A program made the translations under genes and the position numbers. Shown one piece after another: positions 60,901-62,676 of a stretch of 64,000 nucleotides of DNA. The notes below the pieces were generated by a model. That model was not told where the DNA came from and did no database searches. It was given only the letters and a program-made list of their open reading frames with translations. The first letter of the stretch is position 1. Each line of letters opens with the position of its first letter. The DNA is from Xiphias gladius (Eukaryota > Chordata > Actinopteri > Istiophoriformes > Xiphiidae): assembly GCF_016859285.1 (NCBI RefSeq), contig NC_053415.1, positions 13,278,501 through 13,342,500 of the forward strand. The letters are read 5' to 3'.

Positions 60901-62676
60901 TCAGCTCTGCCTGGAGCACAGACAATGATCCCCTTTTTCTCAACTCGCATAATGAACTCTTTCTCCCAAATACACAACTAGTAACACATTCTGGAAGCTC
61001 ACTAGACTTGACTCAAACACATAAGAAGGGATGCATTTAGTTAGGCAACTTAAAAAAACATATTTTTACATGATTATTGTATTACCAATGTAGTAGTAGC
61101 AATGTAACAAGACAAAGGAGTTTTACAGCGAAGGGCAATACAGTTTGCAAAGTAATACTTAACAAATTATTAAGGCATTGTAAACTGTACCTAGCTTGCG
61201 CCCCAATTTGTAAATTTTATTTAGCACAGCTATAATCTTCAAATGTAGATCAAAAAGGGTTGCAGGTATCTTAGGTTTAAATATTAATTTATGAAAAATA
61301 TGACTGCTGTAGAGGGAAAAGTAGGTGAAAAGAGACAAAAAGGGCAAAAATAGCTCTGCGTATAGATGCCTGCCTCTCCTTCATTCCCAGGTGAATTCAC
61401 CCTCTGGCCTCTTGTCAGCCAACTCTGACGGCCTCCGAGAGGACAGGTGGGAGGTGGACCATGACTAAATAATATTCAAAACCCTCTAGTTGCCCACTGT
61501 CTCCCCATTTCTGTTTCATGATGTGCCAGGAGTGTGACCACACAGAGGTGCAACTCAGGCCAACAGAAACCATCCAAAACAGCCATGGCAGACAGTTTCA
61601 AGCCGATGGCGTAGCCTTCTCAACAGAGAATGATGAAGAGGAATAATATGCGTTACTTTCTCTAAAGCACAACAATGACTTACCTTCATGGTCATTCCTA
61701 TTCTGAATAGATGAAATCTAGGCAGCATTTTGTCGGGAAGGGCTACAGCAATTTGTTTAAAAGTGTCCAACAGTGAAATCAACAGACTGAGCTCTTGAGC
61801 ATCTTTGACAGAACGGTACAGAAACAGTTCTCAAACTGTGTTTGTGTTTCAAAATACAGATACCTGTACTGGGGGTTACAGTACTGTACCTTTGACAGGC
61901 AGCTCCACAGTGCTGTTCATGTTACACAGGGGACCCTGGCAGCACTCCACAGTCTGGTCTCTGGAAGGTGGGGTCTTACAGGTCAACGTACTCTGCTCAT
62001 AAACCTTAAAGCAGCCTTTCTGGTACACCAGAGAGCCGCCGTTGACCGTCAGAGAAGAGAAACACTGGTGGCCCATGCAGCGATTGCCTGTTACACATGA
62101 GCTGCCTTCACACACACACTCGTGCTCCTGTTTGATCAGGGGCTTCAACTGCTCCTCTGCAAAGGATTCAGGAAGAAGACATGGCTGGTAAATAATTAAA
62201 CCTCAAACTATTGCTGCATCACTATAAACATGACTGTTGCTTTTTATGGTGTATAAAAACATCAAATGCAAATACAATCTTGTCATAAAAGGTAATAATA
62301 TAACAGATCAGCTCCAAAGTGGAACTTTTGCACAATCCTAAGTAACATAAGGTCTATCATGAACAGCAGCCAAGAGAAATGTGTACAATCTGTACAAAGT
62401 CACCTTTCCCAGGAGCTTGAACAGTGACGTTCATGTTACACAGATGGCCCTGGCAGCACTTGATGACATGGGCAGATGAGGGTGGCATGGCACAGGTGGC
62501 GCTGCCCTCCTCGTCGTCCCTCAGGCAGCCCTTCTGTTGGACGGCCAGCCCATCGATCATCTTCAGGGAGGAGAAACACTGCTGCCCTGTGCAGCGATGG
62601 TCACGCTCACACACGCCGCCCTCGCACACGCACTCCTGGTCTCTGAGGACTGGTCTGCCAGCAGACAGTTCTACAT
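48928..62676 (-). CDS. acvr1: Activin receptor type-1 (ALK2), 5' end beyond window
   Basis: BMP/activin type I receptor Ser/Thr kinase. Exons on the minus strand: 62676-62404 and 62156-61890 (two ectodomain copies), 60410-60205 (membrane segment, [11 protein letters not shown]), 53591-53492 (GS box TSGSGSG), 52126-51980 (P-loop [13 protein letters not shown]), 51486-51211 ([15 protein letters not shown]), 50214-50017 ([10 protein letters not shown]), 49333-49203, 49062-48928. All phases agree. The missing upstream exon must end in phase 1. L45 loop [13 protein letters not shown] is the SMAD1/5/9 type. Much of the kinase is nearly identical to human ALK2. With one ectodomain exon plus a signal peptide of about 20 aa the protein would be about 508 aa (human 509); with both it would be about 600. 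Teleost nomenclature may use acvr1l. Confidence 0.95.
54990..58870 (+). mobile_element. L1-type LINE relic in an acvr1 intron, antisense to the gene
   Basis: About 3.9 kb, filling much of the 6.6 kb intron 53592-60204. ORF1 remnants run from 55002 ([20 protein letters not shown]) to about 55700 ([19 protein letters not shown] block). ORF2 begins near 55790 with the endonuclease start [16 protein letters not shown] and an FLQETHLSR segment near 55900. Reverse transcriptase pieces follow: [11 protein letters not shown] near 57520-57550 and YADDV from 57823. A Cys/His-type C-terminal motif ([15 protein letters not shown]) is near 58270-58315. The 3' end is an A-rich AAATAAAAGAAATAATAAAA tail at about 58830-58865. 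Many frameshifts and stops show that it is dead. Confidence 0.85.
55790..58560 (+). pseudogene. L1-type ORF2 (endonuclease-reverse transcriptase) pseudogene
   Basis: Family order is kept (endonuclease, reverse transcriptase with YADD at 57823-57834, then C-terminal zinc-binding-like segment) but the reading frame is broken repeatedly. Several regions, including the C-terminal endonuclease part, are hard to follow. I assign it to the L1/Tx1-like group by the YADDV and DAEKAFD motifs; the clade is not resolvable by eye. Confidence 0.8.
61890..62156 (-). CDS. acvr1: acvr1 ectodomain exon, membrane-proximal copy (conventional)
   Basis: Encodes 89 codons: an [13 protein letters not shown] linker and a three-finger domain with ten cysteines ([31 protein letters not shown]). 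It closely follows vertebrate ALK2, including VYQKGCF.VYEQ, TCKTPPS and VECCQG. There is one N-glycosylation site (NST). Acceptor TTTGCAG and donor AAAG|GTACAG give phase 1 at both ends, so the exon can join the upstream copy or skip it without a frameshift. It splices to the membrane-segment exon at 60410 to give ...[10 protein letters not shown]. Confidence 0.93.
62404..62676 (-). CDS. acvr1: acvr1 ectodomain exon, upstream divergent copy
   Basis: Encodes 91 codons: a [14 protein letters not shown] linker and a second complete three-finger domain with all ten cysteines ([31 protein letters not shown]) and one N-glycosylation site (NVT). By hand 41 of 78 aligned residues match the downstream copy, with no gaps. 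Acceptor CTTATCAG and donor AAAG|GTGACT are good and both ends are phase 1, identical to the other copy. A 247 bp intron separates them. The segment between cysteines six and seven is acidic (LRDDEEGSA) where ALK2 usually has a VYEQ-type sequence. No independent membrane segment or kinase accompanies it, so it belongs to acvr1. Confidence 0.88.

Follow-up and report, generated by a model that had tools for sequence, protein, structure and literature searches.

Here we describe a receptor gene of the TGF-beta family on the minus strand of a 64,000-nucleotide window of the swordfish (Xiphias gladius) genome, the window being the whole stretch of DNA that was analysed. The gene encodes a ten-cysteine ligand-binding domain (LBD), a transmembrane (TM) segment, a GS box, and a kinase, which identify it as a type I receptor of this family. 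More than one LBD exon lies 5' of the TM exon in this single gene, namely two, in register and on the same strand, referred to below as exons A and B (Table 1). The gene is cut at the window edge (position 64000), so that its signal exon lies outside, as would any additional LBD exon.

Table 1. Features of the acvr1 gene and its surroundings in the 64,000-nucleotide window
Feature	Position	Length	Strand	Observation
acvr1 LBD exon A (5', membrane-distal)	62404-62676	273 bp	-	phase 1/1, 10 Cys
acvr1 LBD exon B (3', membrane-proximal, canonical copy)	61890-62156	267 bp	-	phase 1/1, 10 Cys
Intron between A and B	62157-62403	247 bp	-	ordinary RNA fold (z -0.08)
Transmembrane/juxtamembrane (TM) exon	60205-60410		-	phase 1 acceptor
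GS-box exon	53487-53591 (ends approximate)		-	tblastn
Kinase exon piece	51978-52127 (ends approximate)		-	tblastn
Kinase exon piece	51209-51490 (ends approximate)		-	tblastn; top solved-structure matches are ACVR1
Kinase exon piece	50015-50230 (ends approximate)		-	tblastn
Kinase exon piece	49203-49334 (ends approximate)		-	tblastn
Last coding exon piece	48934-49062 (ends approximate)		-	tblastn
Neighbouring type I receptor gene	29077-38976		-	one LBD
Neighbouring receptor LBD	38749-38976		-	Pfam Activin_recp 36.9 bits
Neighbouring receptor kinase pieces	29077-34441		-	tblastn
ORF with ermin C-terminal match	18378-18842		-	Pfam PF20491, E 3.7e-08
Long ORFs, GALNT-type glycosyltransferase-like	11641-15906		+	by eye
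Stretch resembling a Tc1/mariner-type transposon relic, upstream of exon A	63300-64000		-	by eye

Both exons have stop-free translations that represent complete type I receptor LBDs. The Pfam family Activin_recp (PF01064) recognizes B at 40.9 bits and A at 34.1 bits (cut-off 20.9), and the human ACVR1 ectodomain is the top solved-structure match for both (E 4.2e-30 for B and 5.5e-23 for A). Since A and B have phase 1 at both ends and the acceptor of the TM exon is also in phase 1, the joins A+B+TM, A+TM, and B+TM are all open, and each of the three is stop-free. Thus, the first-pass annotation of this DNA was right to describe two complete exons in the same orientation, 247 bp apart, with ten cysteines each and symmetric phases, as well as a reading frame that stays open with either exon or with both. 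The splice donors, ranked by a splice-site table among the 3865 GT sites on the strand, fall at the 99.0th percentile for A and the 91.4th for B, compared with 99.5 for the TM donor and 97.9 for one kinase donor. The 16 positions examined at each acceptor contain 14 pyrimidines for A and 13 for B, and 14, 15, and 12 for the TM, GS, and last exons, respectively. Exon B aside, the splice sites at both ends of A score like those of the other exons compared (two donors and three acceptors).

No third ACVR1-type LBD was detected in the window by tblastn, a protein profile, or a DNA profile, and the gene continues past position 64000, where a third LBD exon may lie. A four-row protein profile run against 1673 stop-to-stop ORFs of at least 25 amino acids placed at least three above the inclusion threshold, including both exons and the single LBD of the adjacent receptor gene, and the DNA profile placed A and B alone above its threshold.

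The neighbouring gene is a second type I receptor gene, which adjoins acvr1 and offers a one-LBD comparison for it. One of its kinase pieces matches TGFBR1 structures at 150.6 bits vs 127.9 bits for ACVR1; from its sequence and the human gene order GALNT5-ERMN-CYTIP-ACVR1C-ACVR1, we take this gene to be, probably, ACVR1C (ALK7). Among seven neighbour ORFs compared with Pfam, one reached the cut-off (the ermin match), one matched TGF_beta_GS below the cut-off, and five matched nothing. At E 0.01, Pfam matched neither of two GALNT-like ORFs nor a 51-residue piece of the transposon-like stretch, and a search of the window against Rfam at gathering thresholds gave no matches.

The kinase of the two-LBD gene is identical to that of human ACVR1 at 267 of 295 positions (90.5%), and all 27 GS positions compared (182-208) are the same; position 211, just beyond this stretch, is Asn in place of human Leu. 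LBD B shares 49 of 76 residues (64%) with human ACVR1. For one kinase exon, the match to ACVR1 structures reaches 181.9 bits, vs 153.8 for ALK1, 135.4 for BMPR1B, and 128.8 for TGFBR1. For medaka, the accessible text of PMC10501582 gives identities to human of 90.6% (kinase) and 61.8% (LBD) with an identical GS box for Acvr1, and of 82.8% and 40.0% with one GS change for Acvr1l, the GS-box limits and the choice among the three medaka LBDs being left unspecified in that text. Against these values, the kinase, GS, and LBD B identities place the swordfish gene with ACVR1, and we infer that it is the teleost ACVR1 ohnolog and not ACVR1L. A counterpoint comes from the bonytongues, in which the LBD of ACVR1L was triplicated, so that multi-LBD receptors of this second type also exist (PMC13187141).

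The doubling of the LBD is real, but it is an instance of the LBD multiplication already published for fish ACVR1, and the earlier assumption that vertebrate ALK2 has a single ectodomain is outdated. The LBD of ACVR1 was duplicated in early Osteoglossocephalai, and a triplication is common to Clupeocephala, with subsequent losses in Clupeoidei; Cyprinoidei have lost the gene (PMC13187141). Medaka Acvr1, as cloned, carries three LBDs in one chain, and among Halo-tagged proteins it runs at 130 kDa, whereas human ACVR1 and medaka Acvr1l run at 100-110 kDa; assayed as a whole receptor, it showed the highest BMP reporter activity at baseline and the strongest effect of BMP6 among the receptors compared in the accessible part of that report (PMC10501582). 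The dissection of single LBDs in the Results of PMC13187141 concerns BMPR2 and TGFBR2, not ACVR1. In these type II receptors the distal domain behaves in different ways: it lowers output in Bmpr2a of the elephant-nose fish and in Tgfbr2a of zebrafish, the outer LBD of horse and frog TGFBR2 binds little while the whole receptor is unimpaired, and both LBDs of chicken TGFBR2 bind, the outer like the inner (PMC13187141).

What the present analysis adds is a comparison of ligand-interface residues between A and B, which would predict the copy able to bind activin. The accessible text of the ALK2:BMP6 paper (PMC12415261) names five interface residues of human ALK2, S41, N60, D61, Y74, and M79, the printed 'Asp60' being taken here as Asp61. 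At these positions, in this order, A has Val, Ile, Asp, Asp, and Ala, and B has Ser, Asn, Gly, Tyr, and Leu. Thus, A keeps one of the five (Asp61) and B keeps three, including Tyr74, and deviates from human at D61 and M79; a set of five positions is too small for statistics. Within columns 71-86, a range picked after the data had been seen, 7 of 16 positions in A and 12 of 16 in B match human, vs 33 and 37 of the other 60 columns. The replacement of Tyr74 by Ala, Val, or Glu in the R206H background abolished the response to activin A and affected that to BMP6 little, and M79A abolished neither response (PMC12415261, accessible text); R206H is the human ACVR1 substitution that causes fibrodysplasia ossificans progressiva (PMC10501582). 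With Asp at Tyr74 and one of five residues kept, A is predicted not to engage activin A. BMP binding by A might persist, though in weaker form given that S41 and N60 are lost, and B may engage both activin A and a BMP. Fish vary at position 74, where zebrafish has Pro and salmon has Ser (PMC12415261), so the loss of Tyr74 in A need not imply a new role. An AlphaFold2 model of exon A from a two-row alignment had a mean pLDDT of 35.9, too poor to use.

The divergence of the two copies bears on whether the pair could be an artefact of assembly or a very recent duplication, and on whether A could be a relic in decay, its frame open by chance, that most transcripts skip. Two similar exons in register at a 514-bp spacing are what an artefact would look like; however, A and B share 66% of their DNA over 222 bp and 42 of 85 residues (49%) of their protein, all cysteines being kept, and the flanking introns are unlike, with one 20-bp match in three comparisons (62677-63300 was compared upstream of A). 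This divergence excludes the artefact, which retains practically no probability. Over 76 aligned codons, A and B differ at 21, 23, and 39 first, second, and third positions, respectively, with dN and dS of 0.36 and 1.46 by NG86 and 0.34 and 1.28 by LWL85; synonymous sites are near saturation, as the maximum-likelihood dS of 14.5 and the failure of YN00 to return a value indicate, and the constraint on A is derived from the A/B pair alone. A relic would explain why A changes faster, with 13 unique changes vs 4 in B when human ACVR1 is the outgroup (p 0.03), and why it retains so few ALK2 interface residues. Against decay, NG86 puts dN/dS for the pair at about 0.25, a value that would rise to about 0.5 even if all dN and half of dS were assigned to A, and the acceptor and donor of A are intact. 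In neutral simulations, moreover, the frame and all ten cysteines survived in 9 of 5000 runs when one copy received half the observed divergence and in none of 5000 when it received all of it, and the observed 40 identical amino acids of 76 equal the top value of the 5000 full-divergence runs. From dN/dS, the simulations, and the relative rate, we conclude that the pair has been maintained and that A is the faster copy, which makes a relic quite improbable and bears out the earlier view of an old, maintained acvr1 duplication distinct from an assembly duplicate.

The first-pass annotation left the choice between alternating ectodomains and two in series. Mutually exclusive splicing would place either A or B on one kinase, as in Drosophila baboon, where three LBD isoforms arise from mutually exclusive fourth exons (PMC11195991). 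The symmetric phases and the open A+TM and B+TM joins would permit this, chicken and horse TGFBR2 produce single-LBD splice forms at a marginal rate (PMC13187141), and medaka acvr1, like acvr1l, has at least two transcripts (PMC10501582, accessible text). Nevertheless, no positive sign of exon choice was seen. An intron of 247 bp leaves enough room for ordinary splicing, and the one between A and B folds no better than its shuffled versions, 87 of 200 of which fold as well. Neither exon lacks a usable acceptor or donor, although the donor of B is the weaker, at the 91st percentile, and the in-frame A+B join means that double inclusion is not guarded against by a frame shift. Finally, medaka Acvr1 is a three-in-series protein (PMC10501582), and the two-LBD form of TGFBR2 is predominant or the sole form in chicken, horse, and zebrafish (PMC13187141). 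By analogy with these receptors, splicing in series appears most likely, and exon choice is unlikely.

We therefore favour, with reasonable confidence, a teleost acvr1 gene that carries two or more tandem LBD exons derived from the published duplication and normally spliced in series, in which B is the working binder and A a modulating domain. The resulting receptor would have roughly 600 residues. The membrane-proximal B would act as the ALK2-type ligand binder, and the membrane-distal A would be a constrained, faster-evolving accessory domain that keeps its fold but lacks Tyr74 and several more residues of the interface. Such a domain would modulate BMP capture or signalling, up or down, rather than double activin binding. 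The divergence of A fits receptors whose distal LBD lowers output or binds little; however, the reporter result for the three-LBD medaka Acvr1 speaks against a plainly inhibitory distal domain, and the direction of the effect could be either. The last cysteine of A and the first of B are separated by 24 residues, and modelling of TGFBR2 gave 36 linker residues as the minimum that lets both LBDs of a chain bind the same ligand (PMC13187141), a rough comparison because that linker was counted from the exon junction and modelled for TGFBR2. With this spacing, one chain probably cannot occupy both sites of one ligand dimer.

A more specific scheme, to which we give little credence, is a split of ligand classes within one chain, B keeping the ALK2 'hybrid' BMP/activin interface through Tyr74 and A, with its Asp at this position and an acidic beta4-beta5 loop, being activin-blind. 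If true, one receptor would carry an activin-competent and an activin-blind site. The window provides a sequence-level example of the published LBD multiplication in fish ACVR1, and the unequal retention of interface residues makes possible a direct test of whether the distal domain serves as a decoy, binds BMPs alone, or acts as a spacer.

Among known systems, the closest is the teleost multi-LBD ACVR1 (PMC13187141; PMC10501582, accessible text), which the swordfish gene resembles in its identity to ACVR1, the encoding of the LBD by one exon, and the tandem arrangement of the copies before the TM exon; medaka Acvr1 differs in having three LBDs, whereas two LBD exons are visible in the swordfish gene up to position 64000, in genomic DNA only. 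Zebrafish Tgfbr2a and elephant-nose fish Bmpr2a (PMC13187141) similarly combine a conserved proximal LBD with a distal LBD diverged at contact residues, but in these type II receptors the LBD spans two exons and the distal domains cut signalling, and the gene studied here encodes a type I receptor whose LBD occupies one exon. Drosophila baboon (PMC11195991) is likewise a type I receptor gene with repeated LBD exons, which in that gene are mutually exclusive, in contrast to the swordfish gene, where no sign of exclusion was found.
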